64,000 nucleotides of DNA from an uncultured Collinsella sp. GTDB lineage: Bacteria > Actinomycetota > Coriobacteriia > Coriobacteriales > Coriobacteriaceae. The position numbers were made by a program, and so were the translations under genes. Positions within the stretch are counted from its first letter, which is position 1. Every line of letters starts with the position of its first letter. The DNA lies in assembly GCA_949285915.1 (NCBI GenBank), contig CASDZW010000007.1, positions 1 to 64,000 on the forward strand. Reading direction: 5' to 3'. Positions 47,140 to 58,084 of the stretch are shown piece after piece. Under the pieces are notes generated by a model. That model was not told the origin of the DNA, searched no databases, and was given only the letters and a program-made list of their open reading frames with translations.

Positions 47140-47219
47140 GGGCCGGGTGCAATCCCTTCGGGTGTGGTCCTCGCCGCTTTGCGGCTGCGGGAAACACCCT
47201 CCGGGATTGCACCCGGCCC
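47140..47219 (+). repeat. 80-bp palindromic repeat (copy A)
   Basis: Perfect 17-bp ends (GGGCCGGGTGCAATCCC and its complement) enclose a conserved core with CTCGCCGCTTTGCGGCTGCGG. The reverse complement of the copy at 53847-53926 matches it at about 70 of 80 positions by hand alignment. It lies 24 bases after the P-ATPase gene and may act as its terminator. The 47220-47382 stretch holds no gene. Confidence 0.8.
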
Positions 47220-47382
47220 TTTCACATTTTTGACTTTCAGGGCGGCGTACATTAAGAGGGGTGTATGGCGACCTTTTTCTCACTACCGTCTACCTGCCGT
47301 GATACTATATCGCATATCACGGGTATTCCCCTGTTGCTCCTGGGTTCGGAAGACAGGGCAGAGCGAAAGTGGTGGATGCGGG

Positions 47383-49353
47383 ATGAAATGCCAGAACTGC
47401 GGAGAGGAGCTTCGCGAAACGGCAAAGTTCTGTCCGAAGTGCGGCCATGAGGTGTCGATCGAAATGCCCTCTGATGAGCAGCCGGACGCAAGCGCAGATG
47501 ATGAGAAGTCAAACGACGAGAATGACGCGGTAGAGGACACGCCATCATCCGACGATCAGGTGGATGCGCCCATGGTATCTCCTGATCGGCGCAAGAAGCT
47601 GGTTATAGGCCTGTTAGTCATTATTGTGATTGCTTGTTTGGGATATACCGCGGTAACGAAGTTTTTTGGCGCCGGCAATTCTGAAATCGCGTTCCACCTC
47701 GAGGATATTGAAGACGAGGCGTTCCGTTCTTACCTGCAGGAGACGGTTGATACTGACGCAGATGGGACAATCTCCCAAGTCGAAGCAGACGCAGTGGACG
47801 CAATTGGAGCTGTGGATGGCGCCGGAAACATCACGGACATCGGTCTGAGCGGCCGCGGCGTTAAGAGTTTGGACGGTATCGAGCACTTCGACAATCTCAA
47901 AACGCTAATATGCGATGACAATGCGCTGGTTTCGCTAGATGTGTCCGAGAACTCCAAGTTGGTATACCTGTCGTGTGAGAACAATGCGCTTTCCGAGCTC
48001 ATACTGGCCAGGTTTGGCTCGCTTGCCGTGCTTCATGCAACCAACAACCAGTTGCCTGTCATCGATCTTTCGATGCAGGTCGAGTTACGAGATTTAAAAC
48101 TTGATCCGTCAGTTGCTGTGAGGGGTACAGAAGGTCCCTCTGATGAAGAGACAAAGACAAAGATTGAAGACCTTGCGTTGGTGTTTGCTGTAGCACGGGG
48201 CCTGAGCTATGGAAGCGAATCTGACACGGGCAACTTAGTAACGGATCCGGGGATGTCCGCAAATACCGATAACATGCTGATCGAGGCGGTGCTTTCCTCG
48301 TCGCTGTTTCCTACGCGCAACCTTGTCTATGCGCTCGAGTCCCTTTCCGACATCTCCTATGACGACGCCGGAATGATAAGCATCCCGCGTGCTCAAGGTG
48401 AGGCTGTTATACGGTCAGTGTACGGTTTTGTTCCCGAGGATTTGAGCTACCTCTACGCGGCAAATGGCCTGGCAACCTATCTAGGCGAAGACGGTTGGTA
48501 CGTTTTCCCCGCCCAAGGTGAGGCGTCATTTGATATTGCTTCAGATAACTGGCAGGGCTACGGCCGGCTCGTGTCGTTTGATGCGTGCATTCTTAACGGT
48601 GCCGGTCCCCAGATACTTGATGCGGCGCGACAGACGTATCGCGTAACGGTCGTTGAGGATGAAGAGAGCATGTTCGGATACCACTTGGTGTCCATGGTTT
48701 CGCTTGATAATGCTAACACTCCCTCAGGCTCGCAGAGCGAAGCGCAAAATGCCACAACAAGCACCGCGGAAGATGGGAACGGATCCGAGGACAACGCCCA
48801 ATCTACCGAGATGGTCGATTCAATCGTTCAGTGGGCGGAATCTGAGCAGGGGGGCTCTTCGAGTTCTCCGTCGGACTCGAGCGATGAGTCGGGCGCCGCT
48901 GAAGAGGCCGAGACGTGGCCAGACTTTGATCGGCTGCTGGGCACATGGGACGGCACTCTTATCGAGACAGAGCATAATTCGGTTACAGACCAAGCTGCAT
49001 GCTATGGGGGCAAAACACATCCGTTTACTGTGACTTTTACTTCAGTAGACGCCGCCATGGGCACTGCGGTGGTCGATATGCGCGCACTGATTCATAGTCA
49101 TGGCGGGCTTGAGAATGCTGCGGATGAGACTGAAGGGGACCGCTATGTTGAGCTCAGCGATGTGCTAGTAACGCTACGCGAAAACAGCAATGCGACGTAT
49201 CAGGTTTATGAGGGCAAGGACATCGGTCCATACTACATCAATTTCTGCTTCAACGAAGACGGGTCATTCGTTGCTGAGGTCTATACAGAGGCCAAGATGA
49301 CGAATCCCTTCATCGCCTGGCGTCGCGATACGTTTGAGATGAAGAAACATTAG
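47383..49353 (+). CDS. Zinc-ribbon membrane protein with EF-hand-like and leucine-rich repeats
   Basis: A 656-residue protein of unknown function. Residues 1-24 form a zinc ribbon (M-K-C-Q-N-C, F-C-P-K-C-G). An acidic linker (25-68) follows, then one membrane segment (about 73-93), placing the rest outside the cell if the ribbon is cytoplasmic. Residues about 102-240 match the surface module with D-E-A-F-R-S-Y-L, the EF-hand-like D-T-D-A-D-G-T-I-S and L-D-G-I-E-H-F-D-N-L-K-T-L, followed by short leucine-rich repeats (L-D-V-S-E-N, L-S-C-E-N-N-A-L). A Ser/Glu-rich linker lies at about 440-520. The C-terminal domain (about 525-656) begins L-L-G-T-W-D-G-T. Start 47383 is chosen because the zinc ribbon begins there. 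First gene of a three-gene zinc-ribbon operon. Codon choice is more A+T-rich than in the flanks. Confidence 0.8.
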   Translation: MKCQNCGEELRETAKFCPKCGHEVSIEMPSDEQPDASADDEKSNDENDAVEDTPSSDDQVDAPMVSPDRRKKLVIGLLVIIVIACLGYTAVTKFFGAGNSEIAFHLEDIEDEAFRSYLQETVDTDADGTISQVEADAVDAIGAVDGAGNITDIGLSGRGVKSLDGIEHFDNLKTLICDDNALVSLDVSENSKLVYLSCENNALSELILARFGSLAVLHATNNQLPVIDLSMQVELRDLKLDPSVAVRGTEGPSDEETKTKIEDLALVFAVARGLSYGSESDTGNLVTDPGMSANTDNMLIEAVLSSSLFPTRNLVYALESLSDISYDDAGMISIPRAQGEAVIRSVYGFVPEDLSYLYAANGLATYLGEDGWYVFPAQGEASFDIASDNWQGYGRLVSFDACILNGAGPQILDAARQTYRVTVVEDEESMFGYHLVSMVSLDNANTPSGSQSEAQNATTSTAEDGNGSEDNAQSTEMVDSIVQWAESEQGGSSSSPSDSSDESGAAEEAETWPDFDRLLGTWDGTLIETEHNSVTDQAACYGGKTHPFTVTFTSVDAAMGTAVVDMRALIHSHGGLENAADETEGDRYVELSDVLVTLRENSNATYQVYEGKDIGPYYINFCFNEDGSFVAEVYTEAKMTNPFIAWRRDTFEMKKH

Positions 49354-49361
49354 GGGGAGTT

Positions 49362-49991
49362 ATGTTTTGTACGGAATGCGGAAAAGAGGTACGCGAAGGG
49401 GCAAAGTTCTGCCCATATTGCGGCAAGCCTATCAAGACGGCCGAAAAGAAACGCAGCACCGAAAAGAAACGCAGTGCCGATAAGAGCATTTGGGCAATTG
49501 TTCTGCGAGTGGCGCTTATCGTGTGCGTGATTGTTGTTCCTTGGTTTGAGCTCAACTATTACGTGGGAATTGTGGCGTTCAACTTCTTCTCTATGGGCAG
49601 CGCCGTCTCCAAGGGTGCACAGGCTCTGCGATCGATTGCCTCGATTTCTGGAGCAAGCGTAAATACATACAGTATCGACGCATTTTCCTTGTTCTGTATC
49701 GCGCTTGCCTTGGTGCCCGTGGTGTATCTATCCCTAGATATTCGCACCTATCTCAAGAAGGGGCTGCTGCAATGGGATGGTCCTATTGCAGTGATTATCA
49801 TCCTTGTGCTCGGTTTGGTAGCGGCCGCGCTTATTTCTTGGGTAATCGACGCCTGGATATCTAACGGGTTGTCGAGTTCGATACAGCTCGACGTGGTGTC
49901 GGTGAGCGCGGGATGGTGGATAACGGTTGTGCTTGTCGCAGTGACTATTTGGGTGGATCAGCGTATACGTTCGGGAAAACGCATCAGCTAG
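49362..49991 (+). CDS. Zinc-ribbon multi-pass membrane protein
   Basis: A 209-aa protein of unknown function, 8 bases after the previous gene. The N-terminus is a zinc ribbon (M-F-C-T-E-C-G, F-C-P-Y-C-G) followed by a Lys/Glu-rich linker with the repeat E-K-K-R-S. About four membrane segments follow (near 44-62, 109-127, 142-165, 187-203). The ribbon is nearly the same as in the two neighbours, suggesting a shared partner or assembly. AGGGGGAG lies 6 bases ahead of the ATG. Confidence 0.8.
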   Translation: MFCTECGKEVREGAKFCPYCGKPIKTAEKKRSTEKKRSADKSIWAIVLRVALIVCVIVVPWFELNYYVGIVAFNFFSMGSAVSKGAQALRSIASISGASVNTYSIDAFSLFCIALALVPVVYLSLDIRTYLKKGLLQWDGPIAVIIILVLGLVAAALISWVIDAWISNGLSSSIQLDVVSVSAGWWITVVLVAVTIWVDQRIRSGKRIS

Positions 49992-50013
49992 GAAGGCAAG
50001 AAGGGGTCTAGTT

Positions 50014-50469
50014 ATGGCAAATGATGAAGCTTCGTTGGTAAAACGAATCGCAGGTCTTAACGAAGAGCTTGCGTCGCTCGAGAAGAGCGAGCAGCAGGCG
50101 CTTGCCGAGCTGGGGCGTACCCTGCTTTTCGTCGCAGACGAGATGGAGCTTGACGATAATCAACGTAAAAGCTTATCAGCTGCGCAGGAGGCGTACGATG
50201 CCTGCGGAAATATGCGTGCGAGAATAGCGGAAGCGAAGTTTGCTCTAGAGGAATTGGAGCAGGCAAAACGACAGGGGCCACGTGTGTGCCCCAAGTGTCA
50301 CGCCGAAATACTGCCAGGTGATGTTTTCTGCACCGGGTGCGGTACTAAGGTGTCTGATCTTGAGTTTCCCGCAGAAGCGGCGGGCGCATGTCCACAATGT
50401 AAGTCTCCAGTTGAGCCTGATATGAAATTTTGCCCAAAATGCGGAACGTCGCTGTGCGCCAACAGCTAG
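50014..50469 (+). CDS. Coiled-coil protein with two C-terminal zinc ribbons
   Basis: A 151-aa soluble protein of unknown function and last gene of the zinc-ribbon operon, 22 bases after its neighbour. Residues 5-90 are predicted coiled coil, with Glu/Leu/Ala-rich heptads. Two zinc ribbons follow: C-P-K-C with C-T-G-C-G, then C-P-Q-C with C-P-K-C-G. Similar ribbons are often adaptor modules. It ends convergent with the XRE gene. Confidence 0.8.
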   Translation: MANDEASLVKRIAGLNEELASLEKSEQQALAELGRTLLFVADEMELDDNQRKSLSAAQEAYDACGNMRARIAEAKFALEELEQAKRQGPRVCPKCHAEILPGDVFCTGCGTKVSDLEFPAEAAGACPQCKSPVEPDMKFCPKCGTSLCANS

Positions 50470-50511
50470 GTATTCTGTATTGAGAGGGCAGATAAGGTTT
50501 CGCTGCCGAGA

Positions 50512-50724
50512 CTAGCGCACAAGATCTGCAGGCTCAATGCCAAGTCCGTCGGCAATCTTGCAGAGATTATTAAAGCCGACGCTAATCTCGCCACGCTCCA
50601 CGCCAGAGAGATAGGGCTGGCTGATGCCGGTCATGAGCGCGAAGGATCGCTGTGAAATGCCCTGCTGTTCACGGGCTGTTTTGATGCGTTTGCCGAGTAT
50701 GTGCCGGCGCTCTTCGATATTCAT
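50512..50724 (-). CDS. Small XRE-family DNA-binding protein
   Basis: Compact helix-turn-helix regulator of 70 aa, essentially only the DNA-binding domain. It has G-K-R-I-K-T-A-R-E-Q-Q-G-I-S-Q, S-Q-P-Y-L-S-G-V-E-R-G and the C-terminal helix with L-C-K-I-A-D-G-L-G-I-E-P. It is divergent from the 986-aa surface-protein gene across 105 bases, which contain a TGATA/TATCA inverted pair, and convergent with the zinc-ribbon operon. It probably controls itself and the surface-protein gene; this is inference from position. Confidence 0.88.
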   Translation of the reverse strand: MNIEERRHILGKRIKTAREQQGISQRSFALMTGISQPYLSGVERGEISVGFNNLCKIADGLGIEPADLVR

Positions 50725-50755
50725 GGCGTCAGCTTACGAGGCTTTCTAGGGCTAG

Positions 50756-50775: not shown

Positions 50776-50829
50776 TGCGTCAATCTGTATGCCTGCCGTT
50801 AGTGCGCAGCGGATTGCAGGGGAGGAGAG

Positions 50830-53790
50830 ATGGTGGCAAGAAAAACGTTGAGGTGGAGTCTGCTGGCAGCCCTGCTGCTGGCGTTCGTGGGGGCGATTCT
50901 TCCTGCTCCCGCTTATGCGGAGACGGATGGATGCGTCGAACTAACTATCGATGCGGATAAAGGGACATACGAGCAGGGCGAGATTGCCACGTTTACCGTC
51001 GAGATGCGCAACACGTCCGATGGCGATGTGGCCGGTGCTGCGTATACGGTTGCGCTGCCGGAAGAGATGGAGCTTATCGAGGGGTCTCAGGCAACAGGAT
51101 CCGTCGCGGCTCTTGCGTCGGGTGAGACGTACACCGCCACCGTCGAGGCAAAGGTGCTTGCTCCGACAGGCGCTGAGATTACTGCGTCGATTCCCCAAAC
51201 GGGTGATAACACACTTGCGCTTATTACGGCCTGCATAGGGGGCGCCGTGCTTCTTGGTGCGACTGCCTATCTGGTGCGTCGGCGAAACAGCGGTGCCATG
51301 ATGCTTGTCGTCGCGTTGGTAATTTCCGGTTCGCTGTGCGCCTCTGCGCCCCATGTGGCCTACGCTGCAGATGCGATACGTGGCACGACTGATGCGTCGT
51401 GCAATATAACGGTGGCAGGCCGGAAGCGGACGGTTACAGCAACGGTGTCCTACACGGTTCCTGCCGGTGCGCAGGAGGATTCTAACGAATCTGATGACGG
51501 TCACGGAGGCGAGACCGTCATCATGACGCGCGCGGAGTGGGTTTCCAAGCTTCTTGACGGCACCGGTGCGATTGCGCTCGACACCAACGAGGAGCCCTAT
51601 GACGATATCGCGAAGCATGCTGCCGAAGCCGATATCAAGACGGCATGGGTGCTGAATATTCTGCCGGATGATGGTGGGGATTTTGATCCCGATGGGACGG
51701 CGACGCGCGATTTTGTATTCTCGGTAGCGGCCCTTGCGGCGGATGTGGACGCAGACGGTAAGGAGCTTGTTGCGCCGGATGCGGACGATGCGGAGCATCC
51801 AGAGTTACTCGCGGCAGCTCTTGACGCCGGTTTATTTGCAACAGATGATGAAGGGCGCGTGAACCCCGCAAGTCCGTTTGATGCTCGAGAGGCAGACGCG
51901 CTGATAGGGCAAATAATAACGCTCGGGACGCGCGAGGACGACGAGCCGGATGATGCCGCAGGCGGCTCATCGTATGAGTATCGTCGTGACGTTTGCGTGG
52001 TTAACGGATACACAGAGCAACAGGGCATATATGTAGTCGACAATCGACAAGACATAGCGGTTGGAGATAAAGTAGCCCTTGAGCCTTCCGACGAAACTAA
52101 TGGCGGAGTTATCGGAACCGTTACTCAGGTCGTCCTCTCAGGAAACAAGACGTTCCTGCGCATCGAGCCTGCAGCCAACCCTTCCGAGATTTATTCATCT
52201 ATTTCTCTGAACGAGCAGAATCTTGCCATTGCGGCCTCAGATATGGTGCTCGCTGAAGGTGTTACCTTTGCGAATGCTCCGGATGTGCAGAGCGCTCGAG
52301 ATCGTGTGGATTTAGATTCAAAGGTCGACCTCAATATCACTTATCCCAAAGAGGATGACGAGGACTTCAAGGTAAGTGGATCGCTTACTATACAACCATA
52401 TGTCAACGTTGAGTGGAGGTGGATATCGCTATTTGAGGGTCCCCGACGTATTGATTTGGGGTTTGGGTCGGATACGACGGTGACAGGTTCGGTAGACGCG
52501 TCAGTTGATAAGAACATCTCAGTGCCAATTCTTGACGGAACCGATATCCAGACGCCTATTCCAGGTATTTTAGTTGGGATTAATCTCGACTTGACTGTTA
52601 GCGCCGAGGGTCATATTACGTTTACTTCTACGATTAGCTCAGAAGCCGGAATAACGTACAATCGTGTTGCAGGCTTCGAGCCGTATGGCGCCCTCGATTC
52701 TGATACGGAGCTCGAGCTCAATGCAGGATTCCGTATGGGATTGTCTCCATGGCTTAGTCTCAATTGCGGTGTGAAAGGTTTTAATGCGCCGCTCATCGAC
52801 GGTTCGTTTGAGGCGGGGATCGATGGGTCCGGCTCTGCCACCGTGCGCGATACGGGCCTCATATGCAACGATACATCACTGTATGCGTACGCACGCGTAG
52901 CCCTTGGTGAACATAGCGAGATTCTTAAGTGGATTACGGATGCACTTGACTGGACGTTAGCTCATGATTTATGGGATGAAGACTCGAGTCCGTTCAGCAT
53001 AAAGATGCATTGGGAAGATGGCAAACTTGTCGACGCTTGCACGTATCGCGAGGATGGTTCAAGCGACGAAGGCGGTACGGGAGTTGTCGATCCGAGCTTC
53101 GACGGCATTCCTGCCCTAGAGGATGAGGGTTGGGGCCACGAGCCGGTCTGGACCGTTTCTGATAACAATCACGAAGAGATAGTCGACCCATTCTATATTG
53201 ATGCGGGCAGTTCGATTACGGTAACCGCACAAGAGGGCTGTAACTACCGTGGAATGTTTGGCTCGAGTGGCAATATCCTCGTCCGGAGGTCTGTGGCATT
53301 CGACGACGGTGAGGTAATCACCTATCTTGACCAAGGTGTTTACATGTTCCCGTGGGATAGCTCGGATGTCAGTACGGTGACGTTGGAGGTCTTGGTTGGT
53401 CGATTGAAAGTCTGGGACCTTGAAGGCTGGGGGATTGACCCTCTGAGTGGAGAAACGTTCGCAGCGCGCCCGATTTGTTCACTGAAGGATTGCGATACGG
53501 TTGCCTACCCTGTGTCGCTGTCAGCAACGGTGGTCACAGTTGGCGTCGAGAACACCTATCAGCTCGAGGCGCAACAGACTGTCCAGTCAATATACGAGTC
53601 TGAAAGCTGCGATTATGATTATAGCGATGGGACAGGCTGGAGCTGGGAAAGTGATGATGAACGCATTGCCAGCGTTGACGATAATGGAATTATTACGGGT
53701 GTAGCACCCGGAACCACGTATGTCACTGTGACATACGGAAATGGAAGTATGGGATTTGACCGTATCTGTAAAGTGGTCGTTACTGAGTAA
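50830..53790 (+). CDS. Surface protein with internal sorting signal and second signal peptide
   Basis: A 986-aa exported protein of unknown role. Residues 1-30 are a signal peptide (A-Y-A/E-T). Residues 31-118 look like a small beta domain. At 121-126 stands I-P-Q-T-G-D, followed by a hydrophobic stretch (127-148) and R-R-R-N: a complete LPxTG-type sorting signal, but inside the protein. It is followed at once by a second hydrophobic segment (157-172) ending A-Y-A-A-D, like a second signal peptide. Residues about 230-375 hold two weak S-layer-homology-like repeats (M-T-R-A-E-W-V-S-K-L-L; A-T-R-D-F-V-F-S-V-A-A-L). The middle is unknown. The C-terminus (about 895-986) is a Big_2-like Ig domain. 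GGGGAGGAG precedes the ATG. DNA is visibly more A+T-rich than the flanks, above all from 52.1 kb on. Confidence 0.85.
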   Translation: MVARKTLRWSLLAALLLAFVGAILPAPAYAETDGCVELTIDADKGTYEQGEIATFTVEMRNTSDGDVAGAAYTVALPEEMELIEGSQATGSVAALASGETYTATVEAKVLAPTGAEITASIPQTGDNTLALITACIGGAVLLGATAYLVRRRNSGAMMLVVALVISGSLCASAPHVAYAADAIRGTTDASCNITVAGRKRTVTATVSYTVPAGAQEDSNESDDGHGGETVIMTRAEWVSKLLDGTGAIALDTNEEPYDDIAKHAAEADIKTAWVLNILPDDGGDFDPDGTATRDFVFSVAALAADVDADGKELVAPDADDAEHPELLAAALDAGLFATDDEGRVNPASPFDAREADALIGQIITLGTREDDEPDDAAGGSSYEYRRDVCVVNGYTEQQGIYVVDNRQDIAVGDKVALEPSDETNGGVIGTVTQVVLSGNKTFLRIEPAANPSEIYSSISLNEQNLAIAASDMVLAEGVTFANAPDVQSARDRVDLDSKVDLNITYPKEDDEDFKVSGSLTIQPYVNVEWRWISLFEGPRRIDLGFGSDTTVTGSVDASVDKNISVPILDGTDIQTPIPGILVGINLDLTVSAEGHITFTSTISSEAGITYNRVAGFEPYGALDSDTELELNAGFRMGLSPWLSLNCGVKGFNAPLIDGSFEAGIDGSGSATVRDTGLICNDTSLYAYARVALGEHSEILKWITDALDWTLAHDLWDEDSSPFSIKMHWEDGKLVDACTYREDGSSDEGGTGVVDPSFDGIPALEDEGWGHEPVWTVSDNNHEEIVDPFYIDAGSSITVTAQEGCNYRGMFGSSGNILVRRSVAFDDGEVITYLDQGVYMFPWDSSDVSTVTLEVLVGRLKVWDLEGWGIDPLSGETFAARPICSLKDCDTVAYPVSLSATVVTVGVENTYQLEAQQTVQSIYESESCDYDYSDGTGWSWESDDERIASVDDNGIITGVAPGTTYVTVTYGNGSMGFDRICKVVVTE

Positions 53791-55853: not shown

Positions 55854-56594
55854 ATGAAACGGACTACAAGATTGATGCTGAGCGTTGCCTCGGGCATTCT
55901 GGCCGCGGGACTTGCCCTTTGGTACGGCTCCTCGGTGCGTGCGGAGGCGGACCAGGCGCGCCAAGAAGTGCTTGCCGCGTACGGCGGCGAGCTGGTGAGC
56001 GTCTGCGTTGCCTCGCGCGATGTGGATGCCGGCGAGGTCTTGAGCGAGGCGAATGTCCAAGTCGAGGAATGGGTGGCGAGCCTGCTTCCCGATGAAGCGG
56101 AGACATCGCTTGAGGACCTCGTCGGCAAGCGCGCCACTTCTGCCATTCCCGCCCGCGCGGTCATTTGCCCGACCTATCTCGAACAGCACGACGGGGCTAT
56201 CGAGGTGCCTGCGGGAAAGGTCGCCGTCTCTGTTGCGGTGGACGAGGAGCATGCCGTGGGCGGCGCCATCGCTCCGAACGATCGGGTGGACGTGTATGTG
56301 TCGAGCAATGGCGTGGCTGACCGTCTTTGCAGTGCGAGCGTAATAGATACGAGCGCGCACGGCCAGGAGTCTGAATCCTCGTCCATCACCTGGGCGACTC
56401 TGGCAATCGATCCAGAGCGGGTGAGCGAGGTTCTTGCCGCTACGGCAAAAGGGGCGGTAAGCCTCACCATGCCCGAGGCGGCAAGCGGCGAGAACACATC
56501 TGATGGCGATGCCAACGAAGGCGGCGAGAAGGATGCCGGGGAGCAAACGACTTCCGATTCTTCCGGTAACGAGAACGGCGAGGAGGCTGCATGA
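55854..56594 (+). CDS. cpaB: Tad pilus assembly protein CpaB/RcpC-like
   Basis: First gene of the Tad (Flp pilus) operon, 246 aa. A single N-terminal membrane segment (about 7-25) is followed by a SAF-like domain with V-C-V-A-S-R-D-V-D-A-G-E-V-L (about 49-62) and A-I-P-A-R-A-V-I. The RcpC/CpaB region follows, with V-A-V-S-V-A-V-D-E-E-H-A-V-G-G-A-I-A-P-N-D-R-V-D-V near 122-146. In Gram-negatives CpaB works with the outer-membrane secretin; in this single-membrane organism it may instead help the pilus pass the wall. The last 35 residues are Gly/Ser/Glu/Asp-rich and low in complexity. GAGAGG lies ahead of the ATG. ATGA overlap with the next gene. Confidence 0.88.
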   Translation: MKRTTRLMLSVASGILAAGLALWYGSSVRAEADQARQEVLAAYGGELVSVCVASRDVDAGEVLSEANVQVEEWVASLLPDEAETSLEDLVGKRATSAIPARAVICPTYLEQHDGAIEVPAGKVAVSVAVDEEHAVGGAIAPNDRVDVYVSSNGVADRLCSASVIDTSAHGQESESSSITWATLAIDPERVSEVLAATAKGAVSLTMPEAASGENTSDGDANEGGEKDAGEQTTSDSSGNENGEEAA

Positions 56595-58084
56595 TGGGGA
56601 ACGTCTGGCTTGCATGCTGTGCCTGCGATAGGTATCCGGAGCTACAGCGCGAGATTGAGCTGCGCGACCCTCGGGCGAAGATTCTGCGCGTAGGGGACGG
56701 CGAATCGTTGCTGCGCGTGATCGAGGCATTTGCCCGCTCGGGGGAGCGAACGCCGGTAATGATCGGGCGGGAGACGGACGCCGAGGGGGACCTTCTGGAT
56801 TTGGTCGAGGGTCTTTGCCAGAGCGGTGCCGCTGCCCAGATTGTTGTTATGGCAGAGCGGGCAGATGCCGCACTTGCAGCGCGCCTATTCAATGCCGGGG
56901 CAAATGAGGTCATCGCGGGACAGGGCGAGGTCCCGACCGATAGTGAAAGAGAGGCCGGTGCGGAGACGGGGCACATGGCCGCGATACGGGATGGGGACAA
57001 AGGCCGCGATGACGCTGCTTCTGGGGCGCCGCATGATACCGGTAGGCTGACCCGCGTTGTCGAGGGAGCCATCCATGGCGGCGCCCCTGAGGAGCATCTG
57101 TCCCATGCAAACTACGCTGATGACCTCGACGAGCCCGATGCATTCGCATCTGCTGGGAACGATGCTTCCGCATTGCCTTCCGTAAGGGATGTGGCGCCGA
57201 CGCCCTTGGCACGAAGTGCGACACCGCGCTCCCGCCCCGTTCGAAATGAGCGAGGTGGAGCCCCTCTCATCACCCTCATATCTGGCCGCGGTGGTTGCGG
57301 AAAGACGACGGTCGCTGCAGCGCTCGCCTTGCGTTCCGCAGAGGTGGGCCTGCGCTGCGCCCTGCTCGACCTGGACCTTATGTTTGGGAATCTGTATGCA
57401 ATCTTGGGCATCGAGGAGCCGAGTGACGCGTTTGCACTCGAGCGTCCGGCACGGGCGGGGGCGCTTGGTGAGGAGGATGTCGTGCGCGCGTCCATGCGTG
57501 TCGCACCGGGGCTCACGCTGTGGGGACCGGTGCGGGCTCCTGAGCATGCGGAGCTCATGGCGCCCGCGGTGGAGCAGCTAATTGAGGTCATGCGTGGCGA
57601 GGCGGACCTCATCGTAGCGGACACCTCTCTGTATTGGAGCGATTCGGTTGCCGCCGCAGTCGCTTGTTGCGACCGCTGCCTTGTGGTGGGGGATGCCGGC
57701 GTGGGGTCCATCTCCTCTGCGGAGCGCGCGATCGATTTCGCCGGAAGGCTCGGTGTTTCCCGTACCAAGATGGCGAGCGTCTTCAACCGCTTGTCGCCGC
57801 ACGGTGGCGAGGACGCTGCTATGCGCTTTGAGTTCACGACAGCCCTCGGCTGCAAAGGGCGTATCGCTGACGGCGGCGAGGAGCTCACAGGGCTCGCATC
57901 CATCGGGCATTTCTCCGACGCCTTTACGCACGCTGGCCCGTTCCACTCAAGCGCCTGTACGTTCACAGACCAGCTGTTGAGGGAGCTCGGGTTCAGCATA
58001 ACAAGTCAAGAAGTTCCGTCTGCGGATGCGCACGAGAGGCCCCGCATTCGGCTTCCGTGGCACCGTGGAGGTGACGCAAGATGA
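56591..58084 (+). CDS. cpaE: Tad pilus ATPase/localisation protein CpaE-like
   Basis: MinD/ParA-type ATPase of the Tad locus, 497 aa, thought to place or organise the pilus machine at the membrane. The N-terminal 115 residues resemble a degenerate receiver fold (I-V-V-M-A-E-R-A-D-A-A-L-A-A-R-L-F-N-A-G-A-N-E-V without clear phosphorylation site). A hydrophilic linker of about 100 residues follows. The ATPase domain begins near 225 with the loop S-G-R-G-G-C-G-K-T-T, lacking the signature Lys of the deviant Walker A motif (Arg instead). L-L-D-L-D-L-M-F-G-N-L is next. Walker B is L-I-V-A-D-T-S, with Ser where others have hydrophobic or Pro. Overlaps cpaB and cpaF by ATGA. Confidence 0.85.
   Translation: MMGNVWLACCACDRYPELQREIELRDPRAKILRVGDGESLLRVIEAFARSGERTPVMIGRETDAEGDLLDLVEGLCQSGAAAQIVVMAERADAALAARLFNAGANEVIAGQGEVPTDSEREAGAETGHMAAIRDGDKGRDDAASGAPHDTGRLTRVVEGAIHGGAPEEHLSHANYADDLDEPDAFASAGNDASALPSVRDVAPTPLARSATPRSRPVRNERGGAPLITLISGRGGCGKTTVAAALALRSAEVGLRCALLDLDLMFGNLYAILGIEEPSDAFALERPARAGALGEEDVVRASMRVAPGLTLWGPVRAPEHAELMAPAVEQLIEVMRGEADLIVADTSLYWSDSVAAAVACCDRCLVVGDAGVGSISSAERAIDFAGRLGVSRTKMASVFNRLSPHGGEDAAMRFEFTTALGCKGRIADGGEELTGLASIGHFSDAFTHAGPFHSSACTFTDQLLRELGFSITSQEVPSADAHERPRIRLPWHRGGDAR

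Follow-up and report, generated by a model that had tools for sequence, protein, structure and literature searches.

The 986-residue protein encoded in the analysed window (the whole stretch of 64,000 nucleotides of an uncultured Collinsella sp.) is probably a natural polyprotein and would represent a surface-display module of Coriobacteriia, a reading to which we assign a probability of roughly 0.6. Signal peptidase would cut the chain at both of its signals, and in most members of the family sortase would cut at an internal sorting motif. The columns that are nearly invariant among homologous modules coincide with both signal-peptidase sites, with the core of a DUF11 domain and with the T and D positions in the sorting motif; these columns are part of the evidence for the polyprotein.

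Layout of the reading frame and proposed processing

The ORF runs as a single uninterrupted frame on the plus strand from position 50830 to 53790, is preceded by a strong ribosome-binding site (GGGAGGAG, 50820-50827) and is present as a single copy in its own genome. The module comprises the first 215 residues and is followed by an SLH-like region, a core and a Big_2 domain. It begins with signal peptide 1 (residues 1-30, 50830-50919), with predicted cleavage between A28-Y-A30 and the following E; A28 is retained in 30/31 and A30 in 31/31 homologous modules, so that the N-terminal Sec signal peptide typical of LPXTG-type substrates is present. Next come the first six predicted strands of a DUF11/CLIPPER-like β-sandwich (residues 36-110, 50935-51159; Pfam, and AlphaFold2 with a pLDDT of ~93), followed by the internal sorting motif IPQTGD (residues 121-126, 51190-51207), a predicted stop-transfer span termed TM1 (residues ~127-148, 51208-51273; hydropathy, helical in the AlphaFold2 model) and three arginines (residues 150-152, 51277-51285) in a predicted cytoplasmic loop. 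The second span, TM2 (residues 153-179, 51286-51366), was called as a second signal peptide by its hydropathy and its conserved A-x-A; its hydrophobic stretch comprises residues ~155-172 and precedes the second putative signal-peptidase site, A177-Y-A179 (51358-51366), with cleavage before the next A. The chain continues for 834 residues after the three arginines, beginning beyond TM2 with a two-stranded β-hairpin (residues 183-210, 51376-51459; AlphaFold2 strands 183-195 and 198-210, turn Gly in 26/31 modules). Farther downstream lie a divergent SLH-like region (residues ~233-395, 51526-52014) and a Big_2 Ig-like domain (residues 894-973, 53509-53748). Of the SLH-like and Big_2-like parts proposed in an earlier, sequence-only reading, Big_2 was recovered above the Pfam cut-off (33.1 versus 22.8 bits, E 5.4e-8), whereas SLH is weak in this protein (11.1 bits versus a cut-off of 20.8, E 0.41); among its homologues L033 scored above this cut-off (22.4 bits) and L034 reached 18.5 bits. 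No Pfam family was assigned to the core domain.

According to the proposed course of events, the chain would enter the Sec channel via signal peptide 1, which would then be cleaved off. TM1 would halt the transfer, leaving the basic loop inside, and TM2 would resume export by acting as a second signal peptide; the positive-inside pattern suggests the topology out-TM1-in-TM2-out. Signal peptidase I would cut after A177-Y-A179, as the conservation of this site indicates, freeing a passenger of ~800 residues with the β-hairpin as its new N-terminus, and sortase might cut between T124 and G125, so that the small DUF11 part would become attached to the wall. With two internal cuts in one chain, a single translation would therefore yield two products in a ratio of 1:1, an adaptor domain linked to the wall and an exported passenger separate from it. 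The passenger of the 986-residue protein is probably held near the surface by its hairpin and its SLH-like region.

With LPXTG/LAXTG substrates (Gram_pos_anchor, class A/E) the module shares the signal peptide, the extracellular domain, the motif [LI][PA]xTG, the hydrophobic span and the basic residues, but here the signal is internal, and a large exported protein follows in the same chain after a second signal peptide. The Bradyrhizobium fbcH gene encodes cytochrome b and cytochrome c1 in one ORF, in which an internal signal sequence and a signal peptidase site give rise to two mature products. The module resembles it in having one ORF, a conserved internal signal-peptidase site and two predicted proteins; it differs in encoding unrelated proteins, in having an additional sorting motif and in its variable passenger. 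In the bunyavirus Gn/Gc and flavivirus prM-E polyproteins, a stop-transfer span is likewise followed by an internal signal peptide that is cut by signal peptidase. This is an analogy only, as the module is bacterial, has no sequence relation to these proteins and carries a sortase motif ahead of the stop-transfer span.

Conservation of the module in Coriobacteriia

A profile of the module (A2) was run against 398 Coriobacteriia genomes and yielded 31 full-length modules in 25 of them, in one frame in every case, so that the internal sorting motif and second signal described in the sequence-only reading recur well beyond the window. One module belongs to another order of the class (G085), and full-length matches were confined to Coriobacteriia in a phylum-wide search. 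The host's family contains two full homologues, L033 and L034, each a single uninterrupted ORF, with the motifs LPTTSD and LPGTGN, respectively; both retain the second signal with A-Y-A. L034 is located on Collinsella massiliensis contig CAPI01000011.1. A scan of GTDB contigs with the 986-residue protein alone as query gave no match, and an alignment-based scan gave two loci, one in Collinsella massiliensis and one in an uncultured Coriobacteriaceae MAG.

The sequence-only reading had also considered a recent fusion; here this would mean that an LPxTG gene was joined by chance to a gene for a secreted protein lying downstream. Occurrence of the family in only 3/67 genomes of the host's family would agree with such an event, but the same layout, with unrelated passengers, recurs in several of the order's families and also in one genome from a different order. 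Recent fusion was therefore rejected on the strength of the 31 one-frame modules, which are only 19-29% identical to that of the 986-residue protein, and we give it hardly any weight. The two halves were not encountered as separate adjacent genes either, since no split copies of module and passenger occurred among the best class-wide matches. Those inspected among the matches whose frame stops at the fitting position (L106, L107 and L110) carry ordinary C-terminal sorting signals, with unrelated reading frames downstream, and were discarded. A stand-alone close homologue of the module's DUF11 subtype was not found in the 398 genomes. Since 31 modules with very different cargo occur in 25 related genomes, these comparisons show that the layout of internal anchor and second signal is old and has been maintained by selection.

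Only A28, A30, Y47, N61, P77, G98, T124, D126 and A177 are conserved in at least 90% of the 31 modules; Y47, N61, P77 and G98 are DUF11 core residues. At the second signal-peptidase site, the Ala at -3 (A177) is present in 29/31 modules and that at -1 (A179) in 27/31 (87%), with Gly in two more, which upheld the earlier description of a second signal-peptide-like segment ending in A-Y-A. A motif A/V/S-x-A/G follows TM2 in all 31 modules. The Ala background in the 17 columns before the site is 0.23, and the enrichment in the subset of modules below 50% identity (n=23) corresponds to binomial values of 2e-13 (-3) and 3e-9 (-1), kinship being ignored. The loop between TM1 and TM2 carries a cluster of K/R in 31/31 modules. 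Lack of conservation of residues 120-180, which the sequence-only reading had named as grounds for refutation, was looked for in the homologues and did not turn up, and the idea of a natural polyprotein, which had been the other option of the sequence-only reading, was supported at the sequence level by the retention of motif, basic loop, second signal and A-x-A in front of unrelated passengers.

The TM hairpin with its basic loop, conserved in 31/31 modules, and the degeneracy of the sorting motif in part of the family would also be consistent with an uncut double anchor, in which TM1 and TM2 hold both the DUF11 domain and the passenger outside and the motif and A-x-A are relics. This explanation is unlikely, as relics would not be expected to keep A-x-A with a signal-peptidase-like c-region in 31/31 modules, or a near-invariant T and D in the motif despite identities of 19-29%. 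A start of translation inside the loop, which would give rise to the large secreted protein separately, is suggested by the ATG ATG at residues 157-158 of the 986-residue protein, near the start of TM2. However, an SD-like tetramer precedes an in-frame start in only 4/31 modules, ATG is found there in 15/31 and the frame is unbroken in all of them, making two translation starts very improbable.

The internal sorting motif announced in the sequence-only reading is present, with T in 28/31 and D in 29/31 modules, and its consensus in the order is L-[A/P]-x-T-[G/A]-D. It is internal, not C-terminal, in the 986-residue protein and in all homologues. Related genomes encode ordinary C-terminal sorting signals of the forms LAKTGD, LAQTGD, LPQTGD, IPATGD, TPxTGD and LATTSD, which places the internal motif among signals of this kind; the host genome itself encodes an ordinary C-terminal signal, LPETGD...RRRTR-stop. 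IPQTGD, TM1 and RRR together form the pattern of LPXTG-like motif, hydrophobic span and basic residues, and the 986-residue protein scores below the curated cut-offs of Gram_pos_anchor (12.2 versus 20) and TIGR01167 (13.2 versus 15.9). A point against the proposed processing is that the sole sortase found in the host genome, which is 82% complete, is class B-like and scored 138.7 bits, below the NCBIfam cut-off of 153.75 bits. In Staphylococcus aureus, sortase reportedly tolerates an artificial extension of the chain past the sorting signal (Navarre and Schneewind), so that an internal signal would be workable in principle.

Relative to xPxTG, Pro is replaced by Ala in 19/31 modules, Gly by Ala in 8/31 and Thr by Leu in 3/31. 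With most members deviating from xPxTG in this way, sortase can scarcely process every one of them: its cleavage is plausible in the 986-residue protein and most members, uncertain in the eight with Ala for Gly and unlikely in the three with Leu for Thr. Three members with TSP3/lipase-type passengers (L068, L070 and L093) have L-G-D in place of T-G-D, and the sortase step seems to have been lost in this subgroup. The substitutions of Thr and Gly, together with the absence of T-A-D among the ~15 ordinary C-terminal signals compared, would fit cleavage by signal peptidase alone, the DUF11 part staying membrane-held by TM1 and TM2 with no role for sortase. The high retention of T and D, and a Gly at the fifth position in 21/31 modules including that of the 986-residue protein, speak against this alternative, which we likewise consider improbable.

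The DUF11 domain and its apparently missing strands

DUF11 (PF01345) matched residues 37-123 with 26.1 bits (cut-off 24.6 bits), covering profile positions 3-98 of 114; the excised domain of the 986-residue protein scored 30.9 bits over positions 3-86. In five excised N-terminal parts the match ended at profile positions 84-87 in four cases and at 60 in one. In ordinary DUF11-LPxTG proteins of Coriobacteriia, the remaining strands of the domain precede the sorting signal, whereas the module does not show an unbroken fold that extends to the last two strands. Residues 1-153, earlier taken for a complete small protein, are thus probably incomplete, as the final strands of the domain seem to be absent ahead of the sorting motif. 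We tentatively suggest that the membrane hairpin with both cleavage sites might be inserted before the last two strands of the DUF11/CLIPPER fold, and that the N-terminal hairpin of the passenger might dock into the wall-linked half. Unrelated cargo (enzymes, adhesins) would then be held on the wall non-covalently by a two-piece domain derived from one chain. The earlier notion that two independent products arise is open to doubt: without the hairpin that would open the second product, the first domain appears unfinished. In SpyTag/SpyCatcher and in donor-strand complementation, the sandwich of one chain is completed by a strand element from the end of another; the module would be comparable to these systems only if its domain is split, and it is without the isopeptide Lys.

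The AlphaFold2 model of the module (227 residues, alignment of three sequences) had a pLDDT of ~93 for strands 36-109, low confidence for the membrane part and 82-91 for the hairpin at residues 183-210. The hairpin reached only ~41 in a passenger model without DUF11, but that model was poor overall (mean 33.9), so that the contrast is no clean control. Splicing the hairpin to DUF11 raised the Pfam score in two of five cases (28.0 to 37.4 and 34.5 to 35.9 bits) and slightly lowered it in three. With a custom HMM built from 24 ordinary DUF11 domains, the mean gain was +0.3 bits versus -0.5 bits for shuffled hairpins, and 6/31 modules were equalled by at most one of 50 shuffles. No extension across the splice was seen with hhalign. 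The reverse splice test was negative overall (mean rank 39.6 of 60); a contiguous DUF11-like domain (L192) aligned in register across the junction in this test. A Foldseek search with the module model returned only generic Ig-like domains, with TRAP translocon subunits as top matches, and a PHROGs search gave generic Ig-domain matches only.

The module shares the Ig-like fold of CLIPPER and has a DUF11 match above the Pfam cut-off, but the last part of the fold is non-contiguous and a first-strand Lys is absent. The crystal structure of CLIPPER contains nine strands (9IFR, PMC12617251), and the isopeptide bond in this type of fold links the first and the penultimate strand (PMC12617251). In alignments inspected by eye, the canonical first-strand position is not Lys in the 986-residue protein and is mostly hydrophobic in the others. 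An isopeptide bond, which is optional in the DUF11/CLIPPER family, is therefore not expected in the module, and an isopeptide latch was rejected.

Passengers, neighbouring genes and implications

The passengers are of at least six kinds: 5'-nucleotidase, VWA/TSP3/lipase-like, Cna_B/SpaA and Big_6, MBG/GLUG, LRR and Big_2. A hydrophobic C-terminal anchor is absent in 30/31 passengers, two of which end at contig ends, and the remaining one has a weak hydrophobic stretch close to its C-terminus. Five distant 5'-nucleotidase paralogues of the same genus without the module have a lipobox-like Cys after the signal, and a homologue of the core of the 986-residue protein (L084) has a plain signal peptide and three SLH-like repeats, as read by eye, indicating that the module occupies the place of other N-terminal anchors. 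The core domain was also found after MYRLYNPY-type or three SLH-like repeats in proteins without the N-terminal module (L080-L083, L084). Passenger types clustered on the module tree with seven changes (minimum six, mean of shuffled labels 19.5), which suggests that module and passenger were mostly inherited together.

An independent internal hairpin, IANAGD...TM-KRGR-TM-AVAGA, was observed in a different protein from another order of the class (L111, G072:C6, in the middle of an ORF starting at ~1430 of the locus), where it sits between two copies of one domain. This protein also ends in a further TM-KRG, and the internal layout may have arisen a second time here. In the window, three consecutive genes for zinc-ribbon proteins (47164-50469) lie upstream of the polyprotein gene, and one of these proteins has a TM span and a leucine-rich-repeat-like region matching the family profile in its LRR part. 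Directly ahead of the polyprotein gene, a divergent gene on the minus strand (50500-50725) encodes a small Xre-type helix-turn-helix protein, recognized by eye. Downstream (55854-58084), a CpaB gene (TIGR03177) is followed by one for a CpaE/MinD-like ATPase, and the two probably mark a Flp/Tad pilus locus.

No earlier description of internal LPXTG signals was found in the open-licence literature, which is weak evidence of novelty. Genes of this kind are easily mis-called as membrane proteins by annotation pipelines, and the internal position of the motif makes it easy to overlook them as sortase substrates. If the proposed processing holds, the module would be a natural bacterial polyprotein joining a sortase signal and an internal signal peptide, elements that usually lie at opposite termini, and would supply wall adaptor and cargo from one gene in an exact 1:1 ratio. 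If the DUF11 domain is indeed divided between the two products, the module would be a naturally occurring equivalent of engineered split-domain tags, one that Coriobacteriia would use to display 5'-nucleotidases and adhesins.
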